Below, piece after piece: positions 4,199 through 19,998 of a stretch of DNA of 64,000 nucleotides. Positions within the stretch are counted from its first letter, which is position 1. Each line of letters begins with the position of its first letter. Position numbers and translations under genes: made by a program. The notes beneath the pieces are model-generated. The model was given only the letters and a program-made list of their open reading frames with translations. It was not told the DNA's origin and searched no databases. The DNA comes from a virus: positions 1 through 64,000 of the IMG/VR virus record IMGVR_UViG_3300047494_000107; one strand, written 5' to 3'.

Positions 4199-5551
4199 CT
4201 AGTCCTTGAACGGGTCGAACTCGCCGTTTCCCGCCATGACGACGGCAAACGGCCGAAGAGTGTGCAGCACCTTCACCGACCCGGCATGGTGCGCCAGCAC
4301 GTCCGGTAAGCGACGATACGCCATCGGGCTTTCATCAAGGTCGCCGCCGATCAGCGTCACGCCGCGCTCGGTCAGCCATGCGTCCATCTGAGCGCGTTGG
4401 AAAGTGCGGATCGCTTGCTTGCGGCCGAACAGCCGGCCCGCGCCATGAACGGTCGAATAGAGGGCGAACTTCGCCTTCGGGCAATCGACGCCTTCCAGGA
4501 TCACCGCGTCGTCGCCCATGCTGCCGCCGACGAAGCCGCGCTGGCCCGGGAACGCCGGCGTCGCGCCCTTGCGTACCACCCATAGATCGCGCCCGTCGTG
4601 CGTCTCGCGCCACGCATAGTTGTGGTGGTTGTGGATCATGTCGGTGACCGCGCCTCCGATGATCTGGCGCACACGCTCAACCACCCATTCCCGGCCGGCG
4701 TAGGCGTAGCGCCCGGCAAGTTTCATGGCGGCGATGTACCGGCGGCCAATCTCGCTATCCTCGTCGACCACGGCCGGCGGGACGTGCATGCCATCCTTGC
4801 CGCCTGACAGTTTGAGATATTTCGTGGCGCTGGTGTGGCCCAAGCCTCGGCTGCCGAAGTGAACGCCGATCCACACGAACCCGCCGTCATCGCGCATCAG
4901 GTCGACGTAGTGGTTGCCTGATCCGACCGTCCCGAGTTGACCGGCCGCCTTGGCGCGGTAGTCCGTCATGTCTGCCGCGCGCCAAGCGTCCGCGTCGTCC
5001 AGCAGTTCGTGTTCGACCCGATCGGCATTCGTGCGGCCCACGCCGAACGACACGGCGCTTGCTATGTCGCGGGTGATTTGGCTCACGCGGTCGGCGATGT
5101 CGGTGAACGGCACATCGAGCCGGACCGCCATGTTGCCGCAGGCGATGTCGAACCCGACGCCGCTGATACTGATCTGGCGCTCGTAAGCGACGACGCCGCC
5201 GACCGGCTGGGCATATCCCAGATGCCCGTCAGCGCAGATGACGCCGGCCACAGCGTTGCCGACGCTCATGCAATTGCGCATCTGGGCAATCGTCGCTTCG
5301 TCATGTTCGCCCATCACCGTGAGCGGACTGTTCTGATACGCCATATCCTGCGGGCGCATGTTCACGATCTCGGCCGCAAACTTGGCAGCTTCGTCCGCAT
5401 TTTGTTGCGCCCGCGCCTGATCGCGGAACGAACACCACGCGGGCATCGTGCGGTCGCTGCCGGGGATGGCGATGCGTTCGTCGGGCTGCAGGCCGGCGGC
5501 GGTCGCCATGTCTCGGCAGCGCTTTTCTAGCGGGTCTACACGACGCGGCAT
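4199..5551 (-). CDS. rtcB: RtcB-type RNA ligase
   Basis: 450 aa, close to full length for the RtcB 3'-phosphate/5'-OH RNA ligase family. Seen in order: ADGHLGYAQPVGG, GVGFDIACGN with the metal-binding Asp and Cys, GTVGSGNHYVDL, VHFGSRGLGH, MIHNHHNYA, KGATPAF...GSMG and STVHGAGR with the guanylylated His. All key residues are present, so it should be active with GTP and Mn2+. RtcB repairs tRNA or rRNA cut to 2',3'-cyclic phosphate ends. No archease gene is seen. A phage copy could reseal host tRNAs cut by anticodon nucleases during defence (inference). Transcribed with fic. Confidence 0.95.
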   Translation of the reverse strand: MPRRVDPLEKRCRDMATAAGLQPDERIAIPGSDRTMPAWCSFRDQARAQQNADEAAKFAAEIVNMRPQDMAYQNSPLTVMGEHDEATIAQMRNCMSVGNAVAGVICADGHLGYAQPVGGVVAYERQISISGVGFDIACGNMAVRLDVPFTDIADRVSQITRDIASAVSFGVGRTNADRVEHELLDDADAWRAADMTDYRAKAAGQLGTVGSGNHYVDLMRDDGGFVWIGVHFGSRGLGHTSATKYLKLSGGKDGMHVPPAVVDEDSEIGRRYIAAMKLAGRYAYAGREWVVERVRQIIGGAVTDMIHNHHNYAWRETHDGRDLWVVRKGATPAFPGQRGFVGGSMGDDAVILEGVDCPKAKFALYSTVHGAGRLFGRKQAIRTFQRAQMDAWLTERGVTLIGGDLDESPMAYRRLPDVLAHHAGSVKVLHTLRPFAVVMAGNGEFDPFKD

Positions 5552-9606: not shown

Positions 9607-10530
9607 ATGTCGGTCGCTGATCTTTGTGCTCAACTCGTCGACCTCCAGCGCCAGCGCGTGTTCTGCATCAAGTCGCAGAGTCGGTGTGACCGTTCGACTG
9701 AGGCGTTCATCGCGCGTGTCCTCGGCTACCGAACCGACATGCCGGAAGACGAGGGCAAAGCCTTCTGGAAGAAGGTCGTCGCATTCCGCAAGGCGGTCGA
9801 GAAACACAAAGGCATTCCGAACGACTCGGAGTTTGACGTGCTCGACGCGATGCGACCGTGCGTGCCGATCATCTTGAACAATGTCGTCGCGCGCGGGGTG
9901 TGGGACAAGCACCGGGAGAACGTCGAGGGCGGCATGCGGGCCGCGGCCAAGCAGTTGCCGGTCGGCGCCTTCGTTGACAGCGTGAAGGGCTTCGCGCTGC
10001 TCGGGCTCGGCGTCATCGTCGGCGAGGCAGGTGACCTGTCGAACTATGCCACCAAGGAGCGGCTTTGGAAGCGGCTTGGACTGGCAGTGATCGACGGGTT
10101 CCGGCAGGGCAACCCTGGCGGCTGCCGCGAGCCTGGCGGCCCAAAAGCGAAGGCCGAGGACTGGATCGCGCACGGGTTCTCGCCGAACCGCCGAGCGGAG
10201 ATTTGGGCGATCGCGGATTCGATGTTCCGGCATCAGTGGCGCGGCGAGAAAGAAGAGACTGTTGAGGCGTCCAATGACGATGGCGACCGGGTAAAGGTGA
10301 CGTCTATCGTTCCTGCCCACCCGACCGGCAAGTACGGTGCGGTCTACGGCGCTCGCAAAGAGGCGACGGCATCTCGTGAGGGTTGGACCCTCAAGCGCCG
10401 GGAGAATGACGCACGACGAGTTATGTCGAAAGCGTTGATTGAAGACCTCCACAAGGCATGGCACAAAGCTGCCAAGGGCGTTGAGCCGGTCAGCTTGCCG
10501 GCGTGGGAGTTGCAGAAGGAGGCGGCGTGA
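9607..10530 (+). CDS. IS110-transposase C-terminal / Nop-like protein, no nuclease domain seen
   Basis: 307 aa, ATG after AGGAG. Residues 1-120 are helical and basic (LVDLQRQRVFCIKSQSRCDRS, FWKKVVAFRKAVEKHKG), possibly a coiled-coil arm. Residues 122-165 (VKGFALLGLGVIVGEAGDLSNYA, then ERLWKRLGL) match the helix-hairpin-helix start of the IS110 Transposase_20 domain, which is structurally akin to Nop RNA-binding domains. Residues 190-210 and 262-290 (KRRENDARRVMSKALIEDLHKAW) fit the following helices. I see no RuvC-type DEDD domain at the N-terminus, and the loop after GLAVIDGFRQGNPGG has no serine where IS110 enzymes carry SGG. I infer an RNA-guided DNA-binding protein without cleavage activity. 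Preceded by six guide-like hairpins. Confidence 0.7.
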   Translation: MSVADLCAQLVDLQRQRVFCIKSQSRCDRSTEAFIARVLGYRTDMPEDEGKAFWKKVVAFRKAVEKHKGIPNDSEFDVLDAMRPCVPIILNNVVARGVWDKHRENVEGGMRAAAKQLPVGAFVDSVKGFALLGLGVIVGEAGDLSNYATKERLWKRLGLAVIDGFRQGNPGGCREPGGPKAKAEDWIAHGFSPNRRAEIWAIADSMFRHQWRGEKEETVEASNDDGDRVKVTSIVPAHPTGKYGAVYGARKEATASREGWTLKRRENDARRVMSKALIEDLHKAWHKAAKGVEPVSLPAWELQKEAA

Positions 10531-10771: not shown

Positions 10772-10804
10772 AAAAAGAAGGGGTCGCCAGTTAAGTGCGA
10801 CCCC
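10772..10804 (-). terminator. Terminator of the leftward ExbB/ExbD-like operon
   Basis: GGGGTCGC (10780-10787) and GCGACCCC (10797-10804) form a perfect 8-bp stem around nine bases. Read on the minus strand it is followed by TTCTTTTTG, a good U-run. It lies 73 bp beyond the last gene of the operon (end 10877). Confidence 0.8.
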
Positions 10805-10876: not shown

Positions 10877-11380
10877 TCAATCGCTGTTTTTCGGTGCTTG
10901 CTCAGGGGGTGCCAGTTTACCCCATGCACCGAAACTCTCGTTGTCCTGGTTACCGTCTGGGGAGCCATCGTGAGGTTCGGGCGGTTTGACCATGCACATG
11001 ATCTTCAGCGGCTCTCTATGCATCGCTACTCGCATCTGCGCCTTGTCGGCGAATGCCGCCAACTTGTCCGAATAGGGTGCCGCATACGTCAGGGTGTCTA
11101 GGCCGTCCTGTGTCAGCAGTATCACGGTGTCTTGGCCCTCGTCGGCGTAGGCGCCTAGGATCGTGACGATCTCGCCGATAGCACAGGAACCAAGGTCAAG
11201 TGTTCGCGGTCGCCCCATCGACCCAAGGTACTGTATCGCGAACAGGCCAATGAGGACTGCCGTCGCCACTGCGCCCCCGATCCGCTGGCTCGTCGTTTTC
11301 GACGCGTAGATGAACCACAAGCCGATGCCGGCGACGACAAGCCCGAGCATGGCGGCGAGCGCCAGAGAGTAGTGGGTCAT
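10877..11380 (-). CDS. Membrane protein of the ExbB/ExbD-like operon
   Basis: 167 aa. Two membrane helices at about residues 6-24 (LALAAMLGLVVAGIGLWFI) and 34-51 (GGAVATAVLIGLFAIQYLG), then a soluble domain of about 80 residues (LDLGSCAIGEIVTILGAYADEGQDTVILLTQDG...) and an acidic/Pro-rich tail. ATG overlaps the stop of the ExbD-like gene. No family recognised. Membership in a tightly coupled operon suggests it is a third subunit, perhaps with its soluble domain in the periplasm (inference). Confidence 0.7.
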   Translation of the reverse strand: MTHYSLALAAMLGLVVAGIGLWFIYASKTTSQRIGGAVATAVLIGLFAIQYLGSMGRPRTLDLGSCAIGEIVTILGAYADEGQDTVILLTQDGLDTLTYAAPYSDKLAAFADKAQMRVAMHREPLKIMCMVKPPEPHDGSPDGNQDNESFGAWGKLAPPEQAPKNSD

Positions 11381-11979
11381 CCGGCCGATCCTCCGTACAG
11401 CTTCTTGAAGGCGTGGCCGAGGTTCTGCGTGTCGATGACACGGTCATGCGCCTTGAACCGCACCAGTGTGATTTCCTGGCCGGGCTCGGTCAGTTCGGCC
11501 GTCCCTGAGTCGATCACTTGCGGCCCGTTGTTCGCGCCGATCCTGGCTTTCGCGGCCCATTTGACCGCAACGGGCGGCTTGTCGCCGCCTCGGATGCTGT
11601 ACAGCATGATGTTCATGACGTACTCGCCGTCGCGGATGCCGCGGCAGAACGCCGTCTCGTAACGGGCGTCGATCGGGCTGTCGCTCTCGCCCATGTCGTC
11701 GCGCACGAGATTGCACGATTGACCGTTCTTGTTGGAGTAACCGACAGGCTGCTGCCCTGGCGGCTCTATCCAGAGATCGACGTCAATGTGCGATCCGGCA
11801 GCCCACTGGATCTCGAATGTCAGGGTGTTCTGATCCTGGTCAGGCGTTGCGGCTGTGACATCTGTCTTGTGGATGTGCGTGAACGCCAGGACGAACACGA
11901 TGAACACGGCTCCGAGGAGCATCGTCAACATGTCGCGGTTGAGGAAGTTGTTGGCTTCGTCGTCATCAAGGTGGTGCAT
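11377..11979 (-). CDS. ExbD/TolR/MotB-like single-pass protein
   Basis: 200 aa. Short acidic cytoplasmic N-terminus, then FLNRDMLTMLLGAVFIVFVLAF (residues 12-33), one membrane helix with an Asp at its cytoplasmic edge, as in the proton-relay Asp of ExbD, TolR and MotB. The remaining 160 residues form a soluble beta-rich domain (LTFEIQWAAGSHIDVDLWIEPPG; NIMLYSIRGG), not the usual ExbD or peptidoglycan-binding fold as far as I can see. ATGA-coupled to both neighbours. Assigned by topology, Asp position and the ExbB-like gene next to it rather than by strong sequence match. Confidence 0.65.
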   Translation of the reverse strand: MHHLDDDEANNFLNRDMLTMLLGAVFIVFVLAFTHIHKTDVTAATPDQDQNTLTFEIQWAAGSHIDVDLWIEPPGQQPVGYSNKNGQSCNLVRDDMGESDSPIDARYETAFCRGIRDGEYVMNIMLYSIRGGDKPPVAVKWAAKARIGANNGPQVIDSGTAELTEPGQEITLVRFKAHDRVIDTQNLGHAFKKLYGGSAG

Positions 11980-12071
11980 CAGCCGCCCCTTACCCAGCGT
12001 ACGAGGTGAATTGTGGCGTCGGTGAGCATGTGCGCGATCGCCGCGGTTGCCAGGACGAGCAGCACGGTCAT
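11979..12071 (-). CDS. 30-aa single-helix membrane peptide
   Basis: MTVLLVLATAAIAHMLTDAT... then IHLVRWVRGG. ATG overlaps the stop of the ExbB-like gene and its TGA overlaps the ATG of the ExbD-like gene, so the frame is locked between two coupled genes. It may be a small accessory subunit. Its reality rests on the two overlaps and its membrane-helix character. Confidence 0.55.
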   Translation of the reverse strand: MTVLLVLATAAIAHMLTDATIHLVRWVRGG

Positions 12072-12622
12072 CCCACCATCTGTCCCTTGGTCTGTCGCGC
12101 CAGGAGGAGCAGCGACGCGGTCTTGAGCATGTGGAAATTGTGCTTGGTCCACATGCTCAACACGATGGCTATAAGGGACAGGGAGAAGGCCGACCCGATG
12201 CCGGCCATCGTGTTGCCGATCATGGCGGTTGCCTGAGACGCATCGGCCGCGCCGCTTGAGGCTACGGCCCGCATGGCCGTGATCACCCCGAGCGCGGTGC
12301 AAGCCAAGCCGGACATGGCCAGCGTGTTCGCGACGTAGAGCACTGTACCGATCTTCGCTGTCATCTTGGTTTCAAGGCTGAAGGCCCCGACGTCCTTTTG
12401 GTCCAGCGCTGGGTTGTCGAGCCGTTTCGCCACGTCCCAGACTTTGGCGGTCGCCAGCCCGAGGCCGGTGAGGAACAGCCCTGCTAGCGGGATGGACAGA
12501 TGAACGGGGTCAAGATCCCACAGGAGGGTCAGGCCCCCTTTCCAGGCACCGATCGCGACGGCCCCTACAGCAAGTGTGTTGAAGGCAGCGAACTGGATTT
12601 TAACACTCCACGCGGCGTCCAT
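12068..12622 (-). CDS. MotA/TolQ/ExbB-family proton-channel-like protein
   Basis: 184 aa from the ATG at 12622 (AAGGAGAG upstream). Four hydrophobic segments near 12-30, 42-60, 92-118 and 135-157. The last two resemble the MotA/TolQ/ExbB core: MSGLACTALGVITAMRAV corresponds to the GLLGTVxGM helix, and NTMAGIGSAFSLSLIAIVLSMW to GIxxALxxTxxGLxxAIP. These proteins form a pentameric proton channel with an ExbD/MotB partner, matched by the gene at 11377-11979. Shorter than ExbB and without ZorA's long tail. First gene of a four-gene coupled operon. Confidence 0.75.
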   Translation of the reverse strand: MDAAWSVKIQFAAFNTLAVGAVAIGAWKGGLTLLWDLDPVHLSIPLAGLFLTGLGLATAKVWDVAKRLDNPALDQKDVGAFSLETKMTAKIGTVLYVANTLAMSGLACTALGVITAMRAVASSGAADASQATAMIGNTMAGIGSAFSLSLIAIVLSMWTKHNFHMLKTASLLLLARQTKGQMVG

Positions 12623-12688: not shown

Positions 12689-12722
12689 TTGACCAGTGTC
12701 TCGCCCTATGAGACATGTATCA
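12689..12722 (+). promoter_or_regulatory. Late control element before terminase
   Basis: TTGACCAG (12689-12696), 11 bp, ATGAGACA (12708-12715), then TGTATCA (12716-12722). This copies the spacing found before genes at 25908, 45495 and 59913. TGTCTC-N7-GAGACA is also a palindrome. The GTG at 12725 follows two bases later and has no Shine-Dalgarno. Confidence 0.5.
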
Positions 12723-14659: not shown

Positions 14660-16327
14660 ATGGAAGTCAGCGGCGAACTCGTACCGTTTCGCATTAACGA
14701 CCCGGTAGAAGACGGCGTCCACAAGGCGCAGCTGCCCAACCCGCCGGGTTTCGTCGGTGCGGGCATCGCGAATGTCGATACGTACGTCGGGGTATGGGAA
14801 GGGTTGGCGAAGTCGCTGGTGACGCCGCCAGAGGCGCTACCTTACGACAAGATTTCGTTTCTGCCCGATCCGAGCCGCGGCGGAATTGTCCAGCCTCCAG
14901 GATTGGCGCCCGAGAGCATCGCCAAGATTTTTCGGGAGAACGTCGGCCCGCAGATGATTCTGCAGATGCGTCTGTTGGACGTTGAGCGGTATTCCGTGCC
15001 GAGCCAGCGCCCTGAGACGCCTGGTTGGCGGGTTGTGATGCGTAACGGCCTGAAGCATCCGACCAAAGACGACTTGATGGATATGCGGCGCTGCGAGCGC
15101 TACTTGCAGAACTGCAATTTCGAGACCGGCTACGCTGATTCGCGTGAGCGCGATGCGAGCGGCGTTGACAGCTTCGGCCAGTTTTTGCGGCGTATCGTGC
15201 GCGACACGATGCGGTTCGATGGTATCGCGATCTGGACGCAGATGGATGCGGCTGGACGGGTTGTATCGTTCAAGGCGTTGCCGGCCGGCAATATCCGGCT
15301 GTGCGGCCGTGACGGCTACATGGGTGTCAAGGAGAACTTCGCCGTCCTGGTCGATGATTCCGGGTCGGTGCAGAGCGTGTTCACGCGAGACGAACTGGTT
15401 TGGTACGTCCGAAACCCAAGAAATGACACTGGAGTACTTGGCTACGGGTACCCAGAGGCAGAACAAGCTATTAAAATAATTATGGGGATGTCAAACGCGA
15501 TAGACCTGAACGTCTCTACGTTTGATAAAAACGGCATACCGAACGGCATTCTCAAACTAAAGGGTGACGGCTTCTCCGACAAGCCGCTGGACGCGCTTGC
15601 GCGTATGTGGCTGAACATGAAGCGCGGTATTTCCAAGTACTGGTCGTTGCCCGCCATCAATGTGCCGAAAGACTGTGACATTGAGATTCTTGATTTGAAC
15701 GATCTCAAGGGCACCGATATTCGGTACAAGACCCACATCAATATGATGGAGGGCATCCTCTGCGCGTTGATGGGCTTTCCTGTTCGTCGTCTTGGCTACC
15801 ATACGTCGGGTGAACGCCGTGACAGCGAACCTACCCCCGACGGCTCAACGGACATGGTCGGTGACGACGACCCAGGTTTGGCGCCGCTGCTGACGGACCT
15901 TGAGTCGGTCATCAACCCGTATTTGGTGTGGAATCGCTGGCCTCATCTGTCGTTGGAGTTCAACGCAAAGACGCCGAAATCCGACGCCAGGCGGTTTGAA
16001 AGCGCGATGACGTCAATGACTTGGGGGGAAAAAAGGGCCATAAACGACATGGTTCCTCTATCAGAAATTGAAGGTTTGGACCCCAAACTGAAGCCGCTCG
16101 CTGACTTCATGTCGCTGTGCCCCGTCGACTCTAACCTCGCCGCTACGTACCAGACCATAGGTCCCATTTTTCTTGAAGTCTTGTACGGCACTGGCGAAGA
16201 AACCGGCGGTAAAGACCCGAAGACGCCTGGCGCTCGCACAGGCGAGAAGAAAGACCCCGCGATATCAGAATCTAAAGGTGCGCTGAGCGGCGTGCGTCGC
16301 AGCGCTGTACGGAGTAAAGACAGATGA
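14660..16327 (+). CDS. Portal protein
   Basis: 555 aa directly after the terminase, the standard portal position. Pattern fits: an N-terminal domain with FRENVGPQMILQMRLLDVERYS, a central FLRRIVRDTMRFDGIAIWTQMD and LPAGNIRLCGRDGY, a stem region with NDTGVLGYGYPEAEQAIKIIMGMSNAIDLN, then GMMEGILCALMGFP and a charged C-terminus (GARTGEKKDPAISESKG). Forms the dodecameric vertex through which DNA is packed. Stop overlaps the next ATG, so a glycosyltransferase is translationally coupled to it. Confidence 0.85.
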   Translation: MEVSGELVPFRINDPVEDGVHKAQLPNPPGFVGAGIANVDTYVGVWEGLAKSLVTPPEALPYDKISFLPDPSRGGIVQPPGLAPESIAKIFRENVGPQMILQMRLLDVERYSVPSQRPETPGWRVVMRNGLKHPTKDDLMDMRRCERYLQNCNFETGYADSRERDASGVDSFGQFLRRIVRDTMRFDGIAIWTQMDAAGRVVSFKALPAGNIRLCGRDGYMGVKENFAVLVDDSGSVQSVFTRDELVWYVRNPRNDTGVLGYGYPEAEQAIKIIMGMSNAIDLNVSTFDKNGIPNGILKLKGDGFSDKPLDALARMWLNMKRGISKYWSLPAINVPKDCDIEILDLNDLKGTDIRYKTHINMMEGILCALMGFPVRRLGYHTSGERRDSEPTPDGSTDMVGDDDPGLAPLLTDLESVINPYLVWNRWPHLSLEFNAKTPKSDARRFESAMTSMTWGEKRAINDMVPLSEIEGLDPKLKPLADFMSLCPVDSNLAATYQTIGPIFLEVLYGTGEETGGKDPKTPGARTGEKKDPAISESKGALSGVRRSAVRSKDR

Positions 16328-19300
16328 ACCGGCCGCCTTTTATTCTTGCATTTGCCGCCGATTCTCAAGGTTGCGGCTGGTACCGTATCGTTCTTCCTCT
16401 TGCAGCGATCGTATCGGCTGGCGTTGTCGAGGGACGACTTGAAGATAAGCATCAGTCTGACGAGTGGCTAAAGGCAGTAGACCCCGACGTCGTCGTGTTC
16501 CAACGCCAGACCGAGCCCGCTCAAGTGGAGTCTATGCGGCGGGCACGTGCCTCGTTGCCTAATAGCTATTTCATTTATGAGATTGACGACTTGCTTTCCG
16601 CTGTCCCGACCAAAAACCATCACCGAGGCGCTATACCGCCAAACACGGAAAAGCAGATCGCCGAGGCGCTGACCCTTTGTGACGCCTGCACGGTCACGAC
16701 GCCATTGCTCAAGACGTGGATCGAAGGGCTGGGCGGCAAGAACGTTCGTGTCATTCCCAACCTCGTCCCCGGCGACAAAGTGCGTCCGCGCAAGGTCCGC
16801 GCGGAGAACAGCGCACGTAAGCTCCGCATCGGCTGGGCCGGTGGCATGAGCCACGCGGGCGACCTGGAACTTATCAAGCCGGCCATGGCCGAGATCGGCG
16901 ATGCGGTCGAGTGGGTATTCTTTGGCGCCAAACCGGAAGGCGAGGACGCCGCGCCGATTGAGTTCCATGAATCGGTCCTGCCGACCGAGTATCTTGATAA
17001 ACTGTACGCGCTGGACGTCGACCTGTTTCTCGCGCCGTTGGAAATGAACAAGTTTAACGAGGCGAAATCCTCGTTGCGCATGGTCGAGAGTGGGGCGTGC
17101 TGCGGCGCCGTCATCGCCCAGGATATCACGCCGTACCACGAGAACTCGCCACCGGTCTTCGCCCATTGCGTCACGTCTGACGATTGGACACGCGAGATCA
17201 AGCGGTTCATGGCGTTAACGCCGAAGCGGCAGGCCCAGTTCGGGGTGGCTATGCAGGCGTGGACGAAAAGCCGCTACACCTTCGAAAGCCGGCTTGCTGA
17301 ACGCGCAAGGGTGTGGCTGCCGAGCGGCACTGACATCTGGTCGCCCACTCAGGTCAAGCCGTCCGGCAAGGTCATGACGGTTAGCGACCCGCTGAAGCTG
17401 GAAGTCGATTGCGCGCGGGCCGTCAAAACCGGTGACCATGTGCTGTGGCTCCGTCCAGGTGCCACGATCGACGAGGGCGTCAAGAAGCACCTCGTGACGG
17501 GGTTTCTCGGTTCCGACCCTGTGGCGGCTGTCACGCCCCTTGCTACGGACGGTTTGAACGCCTTCCCACGCGCTGGCGTCTTCACGCCGATTGACGCGAC
17601 GACAGCGGAGGACATTCAGGGCGCCGTGTCCGAAGCATGCAACGGCGTTCGGTTGCGGACTTCGCTGGCGTTCGGGCCGTGCGTGTTGATGCGTGCAGAG
17701 GTGCTGAACGCGATCGGCTCGCCTAACCCGTTGGCGCATGATGGCGACATGGACGCGGCGATGATGGAGTGGACGGCGCGGGCGGCGATGCGGCGTATGC
17801 ACTGCTTGCAGCTCGCCGACATCTACGTCGGAAGTGTCACGCCGCCCATGGCGATCAGCCAGAAGTCCAAGACGCGGTTGGAGGCGCGCGGTTATCTTCA
17901 GATGGCGGGCATGCCGAGTGACAACTTGGCGCCGCAGTATCGCGAGCAGATCGAACTGGGATTCTTTCGGCGGCGCTGGGACGGCCTGCGCCCAGGTCTG
18001 AATGATCTGCCGGACAATTACCCGACGTGGTCGTGTCTGAAGCCGGCGTTTGACGGTGTTCATGACCCGCTCGTTGTGCAAGAGGTCAAGTTCGGCGACC
18101 CTATCCCCGCAGCCGAATGGATCGTCTTCACCGACGAGAAGACGACGCTGAAGCCTGGGGCGTTGGCGAAGCTTACTGACTACCTGCGCGGTGTAACCGC
18201 TGATGCTCAGGTCGTCTATGCTGACCACGAGATGAACGACTTTCAGGGCGCCAATCTTATACCTTGCTTCAAGCCGGATTTCGACCTTCGGTATTTCCAA
18301 GGTCATGACTACGTGACGCCTGTGTGTGCTGTGCGGGCACGCTATGCGATTGATTGCTGTTCCGGTCGTGAGAGCCTGTTTGCAGCAATCGTGGCGTTGA
18401 TTGGCAATACCGATGCTCCGCCCCGTGATGTCATACGCCACACCCCCGAAGTGCTGGCGACTGTCCTCGACGAGCGTAGCCGCGCCGAGCGGACGACTGA
18501 TTTGGCGGAGAGGGCCAAGGTCAAATGTGAACAGTGGCGGTTGTTCTCTGACCCCGACAAGGTCACCTTCGAGCCGCACCCTCAACTAGCGCCGCTGGGT
18601 ATGCTCAAGGCGACGTACGCGCCGGTCGACGGCTTGGTGTCCATCATCGTGCCGACGATTGGCGACGAGGAGCTGATCCAGACATGCGTTAATATGATCC
18701 TGCAGCATACGACGCACCCCGACTACGAGGTTCTTGTGGTCGCCACGACGGATAAGGACCCCGAACTCGGCGCCGCGCTGCACGATCGCCGAGTACGAGT
18801 GCTGCGGTGGAAGGGCGATTTCAACTGGTCGGCGGTCAACAATTTCGCCGCGGCTCAGGCGAATGGCAGTTACCTCTGTTTCATGAACGACGACGTGCAG
18901 GTAGCCCGCAAGGACTGGCTGACCAACATGCTGTCGAACTTCCAGGAGTTAGACGTCGGCGTCGTAGGCGCCCGGCTGCTGTTCCCGCATGGGCCCGTGC
19001 AGCACACAGGCGTCGTTGCGACCGATGGTATCGTGGCAATGATCCACCGGAACGTGCCGCCCAGCAGCCCTGGTTACCAAGGCTTGGCGGCGTTGTCGCA
19101 TGAAGCCTCGGCGGTCACGGGTTCCTGTATGCTGGTCAAGACCGAGATCTGGGACAAGATCCGGTTTGACGAAAAATTGGCCTGCAATTTTAATGACGTG
19201 GCGTTCTGCCATCGTGTGCGTGAAGCGGGTTATCGTATCGTGGCGGAGATGCAGGCTGAACTGCACCACCGCGAAGGCGCCACTCGGGCTGCGGTCGAGC

Positions 19301-19998
19301 AGAACGCGGCGCAGCGGGCGTTCCAGGAAGGCGTCTATTTCCGAGAAGTCTACGGCGCCGCGCCTGACACGTACTGGAGCCCGAATTGCGAGATTCGCAT
19401 CGTCGATGGTGCCGTGGTTGGCACGTCCTATGACCGTCCACGCTGGAAATCGAGAGTGCCGCCCGAGACGGATTACCGGGTTCTGTTCATCAATGACCGC
19501 ATTGGCCGCACGAAATACGGGCTAGTGTCCAAGGCGATCATCGCTCAGCAGTCGGGCATGATACCGTTGGTAGCGGATCTGTCTGGGACGGAACTGACGC
19601 TCACTGCGCCGAGTTTCGCGGGCGGCGTCACCTGGGATATCCGCAACTGGCGCAATATCGACCGTGTCTTGCGGACGCTTGGCGTCAGTGAGGTGATTCT
19701 CTGCAGCCTGAGTGGGGCGCGTTTTCCGGCTGCCGCAGGTGACACGCTCCGGGCGCTGTCGCATCTGACAACGAAGGTTGGCTACGACCCGTTTGACGCT
19801 GAGTCGGTGTGCCCGCGGCGGGACATGCTGGTCGAAGGCAAGCTGTGCGGCGACGGATACAAGCAGGGTTCCGCGCATTGCCAAGTGTGCATTGACCAGC
19901 ATGGATCACCGTTCGGCCAAGTCGACGTGAGTGCTTGGTGGCGCTCGTGGGGTGATTTCCTGGCGGAGGACAGCGATGTCGCGGACGCCGCTGACTAA
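16324..19998 (+). CDS. Giant multidomain glycosyltransferase
   Basis: 1224 aa, ATGA-coupled to the portal. N-terminal about 340 residues look like a GT-B enzyme: FAADSQGCGWYRIVLPLAAI, RKLRIGWAGGMSHAGDLELI and ESGACCGAVIAQDITPYHENSP. A middle section of about 350 residues (VLWLRPGATIDEG; WIVFTDEKTTLKPGAL) looks like further degenerate GT-A units. Residues around 760-1010 are a clear GT2 domain: VSIIVPTIGDEELIQ, FNWSAVNNFAAAQANG and FMNDDVQVARKDWL with the DxD-type motif, then VTGSCMLVKTEIWDKI and HHREGATR. The last 200 residues contain a Cys set near VCPRRDMLVEGKLCGDG...CQVCIDQHG. It could glycosylate capsid or fibre proteins or host surface glycans. No signal peptide. Confidence 0.85.
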   Translation: MNRPPFILAFAADSQGCGWYRIVLPLAAIVSAGVVEGRLEDKHQSDEWLKAVDPDVVVFQRQTEPAQVESMRRARASLPNSYFIYEIDDLLSAVPTKNHHRGAIPPNTEKQIAEALTLCDACTVTTPLLKTWIEGLGGKNVRVIPNLVPGDKVRPRKVRAENSARKLRIGWAGGMSHAGDLELIKPAMAEIGDAVEWVFFGAKPEGEDAAPIEFHESVLPTEYLDKLYALDVDLFLAPLEMNKFNEAKSSLRMVESGACCGAVIAQDITPYHENSPPVFAHCVTSDDWTREIKRFMALTPKRQAQFGVAMQAWTKSRYTFESRLAERARVWLPSGTDIWSPTQVKPSGKVMTVSDPLKLEVDCARAVKTGDHVLWLRPGATIDEGVKKHLVTGFLGSDPVAAVTPLATDGLNAFPRAGVFTPIDATTAEDIQGAVSEACNGVRLRTSLAFGPCVLMRAEVLNAIGSPNPLAHDGDMDAAMMEWTARAAMRRMHCLQLADIYVGSVTPPMAISQKSKTRLEARGYLQMAGMPSDNLAPQYREQIELGFFRRRWDGLRPGLNDLPDNYPTWSCLKPAFDGVHDPLVVQEVKFGDPIPAAEWIVFTDEKTTLKPGALAKLTDYLRGVTADAQVVYADHEMNDFQGANLIPCFKPDFDLRYFQGHDYVTPVCAVRARYAIDCCSGRESLFAAIVALIGNTDAPPRDVIRHTPEVLATVLDERSRAERTTDLAERAKVKCEQWRLFSDPDKVTFEPHPQLAPLGMLKATYAPVDGLVSIIVPTIGDEELIQTCVNMILQHTTHPDYEVLVVATTDKDPELGAALHDRRVRVLRWKGDFNWSAVNNFAAAQANGSYLCFMNDDVQVARKDWLTNMLSNFQELDVGVVGARLLFPHGPVQHTGVVATDGIVAMIHRNVPPSSPGYQGLAALSHEASAVTGSCMLVKTEIWDKIRFDEKLACNFNDVAFCHRVREAGYRIVAEMQAELHHREGATRAAVEQNAAQRAFQEGVYFREVYGAAPDTYWSPNCEIRIVDGAVVGTSYDRPRWKSRVPPETDYRVLFINDRIGRTKYGLVSKAIIAQQSGMIPLVADLSGTELTLTAPSFAGGVTWDIRNWRNIDRVLRTLGVSEVILCSLSGARFPAAAGDTLRALSHLTTKVGYDPFDAESVCPRRDMLVEGKLCGDGYKQGSAHCQVCIDQHGSPFGQVDVSAWWRSWGDFLAEDSDVADAAD

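Follow-up and report, generated by a model that had tools for sequence, protein, structure and literature searches.

Why should a phage genome encode what looks like an ion-driven membrane motor, and is such a machine really the phage's own? Motors of this kind, built on a 5:2 plan, power TonB-dependent import, Tol-Pal, flagella, gliding and Zorya defence. The DNA analysed here (the window) is a stretch of 64,000 nucleotides from a 110,533-base IMG/VR virus record, and a sequence-only reading of it had claimed four leftward open reading frames at 10877-12622 that form a dedicated phage complex of the ExbB/ExbD type. We report that all four frames are present at these positions and in this orientation, and that the cassette probably encodes a membrane motor driven by the proton-motive force (PMF), belonging to an unnamed family of the MotA/TolQ/ExbB superfamily with A, C and D as its core, which phages would have acquired for action on the envelope. 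The machine type is well supported, while its role in phages is something we infer. The features of the cassette are:

12068-12622, minus strand: gene A, 184 aa; channel subunit of the MotA/TolQ/ExbB superfamily with four transmembrane (TM) helices and pore-type residues Thr109 (codon 12298-12296) and Ser149 (codon 12178-12176)
11979-12071, minus strand: gene B, membrane peptide of 30 aa, coupled to A (ATGA) and to C (TGATG)
11377-11979, minus strand: gene C, 200 aa; single-pass protein with Asp16 (codon 11934-11932) where the TM helix begins and a predicted DUF2135/PPC-like periplasmic beta-sandwich
10877-11380, minus strand: gene D, 167 aa; putative accessory subunit with two helices, predicted to form an N-out/C-out hairpin whose C-terminal part is periplasmic
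10772-10804, minus strand: intrinsic terminator, GGGGTCGC-loop-GCGACCCC-TTCTTTTT, which ends the A-B-C-D cassette (folding -17.7 kcal/mol, z -4.5)

Read leftward from 12622 to 10877 the order is A-B-C-D, and the proposed ATGA coupling applies to two of the three junctions (A/B and C/D), since the B/C junction reads TGATG. The cassette is divergent from the gene of the large terminase, TerL (TTG start at 12689; Terminase_6C and PHROG terminase matches). A motif scan of the cassette region gave neither a sigma-70-like promoter nor a terminator, and the terminator listed above came from folding; in the window the cassette is a separate transcription unit with its own terminator. Other features of the window include an integrase (916-1818), an RtcB-type RNA ligase gene (4199-5551, minus strand), a 307-aa open reading frame weakly matching a PHROG with the annotation transposase (9607-10530, plus strand) and, downstream of the portal gene, a 1224-aa protein (16324-19998, plus strand) that matches a phage glycosyltransferase family over its N-terminal 330 residues.

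That A, C and D are real genes and form one module follows from their relatives. Using tblastn against named phages, A of the window gave no match; C worked as query, matching rhizobial phages with E-values down to 5e-20, and the neighbours of these matches gave the seed alignments for A and D. When viral contigs were scanned, the C alignment gave 65 loci; a pattern scan with C of the window as a single protein found no relative. A neighbourhood survey, as the sequence-only reading had suggested, was done with profile searches of all open reading frames of the loci; A adjoins C in 72/72 viral loci and D is nearby in about 70. Because the window had been among the seeds, leave-one-out profiles were built with the window omitted, and within the window these match A (2.1e-18), C (2.6e-44) and D (2.5e-8) and no other open reading frame. 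The dN/dS values between phage pairs are mostly 0.04-0.38 (up to 0.64 for D), and A, C and D are therefore under purifying selection. Between two of the phages (loci L006 and L020) the identities are unequal, 57% for A, 77% for C and 90% for D, pointing to recombination inside the module.

For peptide B (30 aa) no homologue was detectable, and the one argument for its reality is its exact fit between two coupled junctions. As a conserved subunit it was rejected, relatives carrying unrelated inserts or homing endonucleases at the A/C junction. Seg/GIY-YIG and HNH homing endonucleases are repeatedly inserted within the A-C-D modules of rhizobial phages, in the A/C or C/D gap (L002, L003, L006, L076 and L078).

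Subunit A was proposed to be an ExbB/MotA-like channel, and profile, PDB and fold searches support its membership of the MotA/TolQ/ExbB superfamily. Specifically, Pfam MotA_ExbB (PF01618) matches 32/38 members of the A family (A of the window by itself is sub-threshold, E 0.65), the A profile finds MotA/ExbB/TolQ/ZorA structures as its top PDB matches (best 6.4e-6), and hhalign against TolQ/ExbB/MotA-type sequences gives 97.7% with an E-value of 2.5e-12. The AlphaFold2 model (pLDDT 91.6) has long helices at 3-27, 43-69, 80-122 and 128-183, and the top Foldseek matches of this model are nearly all ExbB/TolQ/MotA, with probabilities up to 0.99 and weak E-values of 0.02 or worse; the predicted fold thus agrees with the proposed one. 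Mean K+R counts are 2.95 in the TM2-TM3 loop and 2.0 in the C-tail vs 0.66 and 0.16 in the other loops, which predicts that the former two are cytoplasmic and that A has a MotA-like topology with four helices (N-in, C-in). ExbB itself is of the 3-helix type. Position 109 is Thr/Asn in 38/38 rows of the alignment and position 149 is Thr/Ser/Asn in 38/38; matched by motif, we take these to correspond to the pore threonines of ExbB. As in the rest of the superfamily, A has the TM3-TM4 signature G-x-x-G-T/N-x-x-G and A-x-x-x-S/T-x-x-G, a full-length profile match, the predicted MotA topology and an adjoining partner gene with an Asp in its TM helix. It differs in that the cytoplasmic stretch linking TM2 to TM3 has shrunk, to about 7-34 residues in the phage copies (many chromosomal relatives have a longer insert), in forming a family of its own and in the company of C and D.

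The partner gene encodes C, whose AlphaFold2 model (pLDDT 89.3) has a single helix at 6-39, a linker and a beta domain of nine strands. The aspartate expected near residue 15 is Asp16, near the cytoplasmic end of the membrane helix, and it is kept in 43/43 viral rows and in 57/61 rows of a mainly cellular alignment. Four chromosomal C proteins (L140, L143, L152 and L153) have Ala/Val in this column, with an Asp roughly a helical turn before it, and they provide a natural test of the position of the ion site. In hhalign Asp16 is in register with the Asp of ExbD/TolR, the overall similarity not being significant (8.5%), and none of the 43 C members match PF02472 (ExbD/TolR). Position, topology and the invariant Asp support C as the likely ExbD/MotB-like partner of A; like ExbD/TolR it is predicted to be single-pass and N-in, with the Asp where the TM helix begins, and it is encoded after the A subunit. 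It differs from ExbD/TolR in its periplasmic part, a DUF2135/PPC-like beta-sandwich of about 150 aa with another fold, and from MotB in being without an OmpA-like peptidoglycan-binding domain (OmpA-family Pfam models match 0/43 members, and the model is a beta-sandwich).

This soluble domain had been called novel, which is too strong, since it resembles the DUF2135 (YfaP-like), PPC and DUF4425 beta-sandwiches. The likeness to PPC and DUF2135 domains is seen in sequence, including the shared motif W-x-x-G...D-x-D-L-W...R-D-D-x-G, and in the fold search against PDB the best matches are DUF4425 proteins, with a calcium-bound entry among the top matches. C differs from these domains in its Asp-bearing helical anchor and its pairing with A, and its Pfam matches were below cut-off every time they were seen: cellular C proteins give weak DUF2135 matches (best 21.6 bits vs a cut-off of 22) and C of the window gives none. 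The domain has invariant Trp59, Asp66, Asp68, Asp94, Gly97 and Glu108 and an almost invariant Asp95, a set of residues that resembles a metal site. DUF2135-like domains related to that of C also form the end of proline-rich single-TM proteins of Alphaproteobacteria (L165, L166, L167, L168 and L170), sometimes in tandem.

D was correctly described as a two-helix protein. The loop between its helices is positive (mean K+R 2.14 vs 0.03 before), which predicts a hairpin with both ends outside (N-out, C-out) and its tail in the periplasm. No Pfam model scores above threshold with D and none for TonB or TolA matches it; it could serve as an accessory subunit, as TonB or TolA does in other systems. 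In PHROGs, A and D have no family and C has weak, partial matches to phrog_1735, to which no function is assigned there; a name for the family was found in none of PHROGs, Pfam, NCBIfam and PADLOC.

Membership of Zorya, Tol-Pal and TonB was considered and rejected. One of the closest named relatives of A is ZorA, and Zorya ZorAB is likewise an ion-driven motor in a phage context. However, A (184 aa) lacks the long ZorA tail, C lacks the OmpA-like domain, the PADLOC matches of ZorA to A are weak, partial and far below the cut-offs (with none for C or D), and effectors resembling ZorC, ZorD or ZorE were not seen among the adjacent genes examined (TerL and phage open reading frames). Tol-Pal and TonB were rejected since D has no match to TonB or TolA and genes for TolB, Pal or a receptor are absent among the neighbours examined. 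A 2025 survey of MotAB homologues reports many generic ion transporters of unknown function, and in the parts of it consulted there is no mention of a DUF2135-type partner (PMC12505986). Our literature search found no account of the A-C-D family and no experiment on its members, which is weak evidence, subscription journals being sparsely covered.

Among named phages the module is present in 16-3, AP-16-3, NV1.1.1, RHph_X2_25 and TM3_3_14B, in the 68-kb phages N3_13, N3_19 and I3_11, in the 171-kb phage I1_18 and in Pootjesviridae, e.g. P10VF and N34; none of the phage records inspected gives A, C or D a functional name ('hypothetical'). Carriers include the temperate phage 16-3, the apparently lytic Pootjesviridae and phages of uncultured bacteria. 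The surroundings differ: in 16-3-like phages the module comes after a region with lysozyme and small-TM genes and after a trypsin-like protease, and in Pootjesviridae it lies beside genes for a late sigma factor and a DNA-repair exonuclease. The protease is encoded in 21/44 viral loci, in many of them just upstream of A. As the position in the phage genome varies, no single phage role is implied. The protease, which has an N-terminal membrane segment or signal (seen among L001-L006 and L008-L049), is possibly a functional partner of the module; it was not seen beside the cassette of the window or in the chromosomal loci.

The claim of a dedicated phage version did not hold. Such a complex is indeed unusual in phage annotation, and it is not phage-specific because the A-C-D operon is also widespread in bacterial chromosomes. 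The genomes sampled were drawn around an alphaproteobacterial record (class 1; 385 genomes) and around a gammaproteobacterial record (class 2; 274 genomes). By whole-genome profile search C is present in 65/385 and 32/274 of these (about 55 and 30 stronger than 1e-20), and the chromosomal operon is found in roughly one in seven of the sampled Alphaproteobacteria and one in nine of the Gammaproteobacteria. All 40 loci fetched from cellular C matches have A, C and D together, and almost no gene families are common to 40 larger chromosomal contexts and the phage loci; a Mesorhizobium locus (L080), some neighbours of which match phage loci, was left out of the chromosomal evidence. Chromosomal neighbours include tilS, accA, a histidine kinase, cytochrome b561 and an L,D-transpeptidase, and some chromosomal carriers encode canonical TolQ/ExbB-type and ExbD-type genes besides A. 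Near D in nine chromosomal loci (L137, L138, L144, L148, L150 and L156-L159), and directly downstream in most, is a gene for a DUF3108-like probable lipoprotein, a candidate envelope partner.

The distribution in Rhizobiaceae is of another kind, as only 4/248 genomes have the module, three of them in 16-3-like prophages; rhizobial phages therefore bring a machine that their hosts normally lack. One copy has an internal stop, a TGA within the C match of a 16-3-like prophage of Rhizobiaceae (L179; G781:C38:409573-410106). An almost purely rhizobial prophage distribution, suggested by a scan confined to an LLRDDLG-type motif, was overturned by the profile searches. Phage and cell rows are intermixed in the tree of C, where well-supported branches force at least three changes of label; the placement of the window is unsure because its branch is long. 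We propose that phages acquired the family more than once, or exchanged it.

How such a machine might work can be outlined by analogy with solved members. A pentameric ring of A would surround the helices of a C dimer (5:2), protons would move past Asp16 (C) and positions Thr109/Ser149 (A), and rotation or a conformational cycle would be passed on by the beta-sandwich of C, with D alongside, to a periplasmic or outer-envelope target. The phage would thereby most likely remodel or guard the envelope of the infected cell.

What phages gain from this is best discussed as two uses, superinfection exclusion and support of the envelope, which we consider about equally likely and each a real possibility that stays short of probable. 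As an anti-phage device, the complex would be an energised exclusion or defence machine, Zorya-like and working without effectors, that detects or blocks the entry of DNA from competing phages. In favour of exclusion, the module is carried by phages that are not related to each other, both temperate and apparently lytic; among them are Pootjesviridae, whose gene content is T4-like and in which lysogenic conversion is improbable. The window has it as a transcription unit of its own, divergent and closed by a terminator, and the nearest named models of A are ZorA families, though far below cut-offs. Against this are the Zorya parts that were not seen (ZorC/D/E-like effector, long ZorA tail and OmpA-type domain on C) and the chromosomal copies, which lie among housekeeping genes and not in recognisable defence islands. 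The other use is as cargo that supports infection or benefits the host, where a chromosomal envelope-maintenance motor, with a Tol-Pal-like logic, would be carried by phages so that the envelope stays functional while they infect or lysogenise the cell. Many Alpha- and Gammaproteobacteria have the operon in their chromosomes, sometimes beside the L,D-transpeptidase or the DUF3108-like lipoprotein, and in Rhizobiaceae, with 4/248 carriers, the phage would add something the host lacks. Carriage by lytic phages is difficult to reconcile with a host benefit, unless it is the infection that is served, and no outer-membrane partner is conserved in common between phage and cell loci.

Two further roles are improbable. 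The complex might aid envelope disruption or the timing of lysis together with holin, endolysin and spanin genes, in keeping with the lysozyme and small-TM genes ahead of the module in 16-3-like phages and with the trypsin-like protease that precedes it there; this is unlikely as a general role, as the copy in Pootjesviridae has sigma factor and exonuclease genes as neighbours, that of the window lies next to TerL and chromosomal copies have no lysis genes nearby, and only in the 16-3-like group does the setting suit lysis. Even less probable is sabotage, in which the phage complex would poison TolQR, ExbBD or MotAB of the host, or act as an ungated channel through which the PMF is lost, itself performing no work. 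A and the C helix could in principle mix with host subunits, judging by superfamily membership only, but C and D are conserved along with A under purifying selection, and the complete set persists in chromosomes of cells that have the canonical TolQ/ExbB- and ExbD-type genes.

Returning to the motor acting on the envelope, the widest version, which we put forward with considerable doubt, is that A-C-D may be a new family of envelope motors, widespread and driven by the PMF, with a beta-sandwich that resembles a metal site as the output domain, repeatedly acquired by phages for energised superinfection exclusion or envelope control in both lytic and temperate growth. Each newly recognised 5:2 motor family has opened a process to study, and here an unnamed three-gene family is common to many proteobacteria and to temperate and apparently lytic phages. 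It raises the question whether, and why, phages run a PMF-powered envelope machine of their own, and with phage 16-3 (p038/p040/p042) on Sinorhizobium meliloti as a tractable model this question is directly testable.
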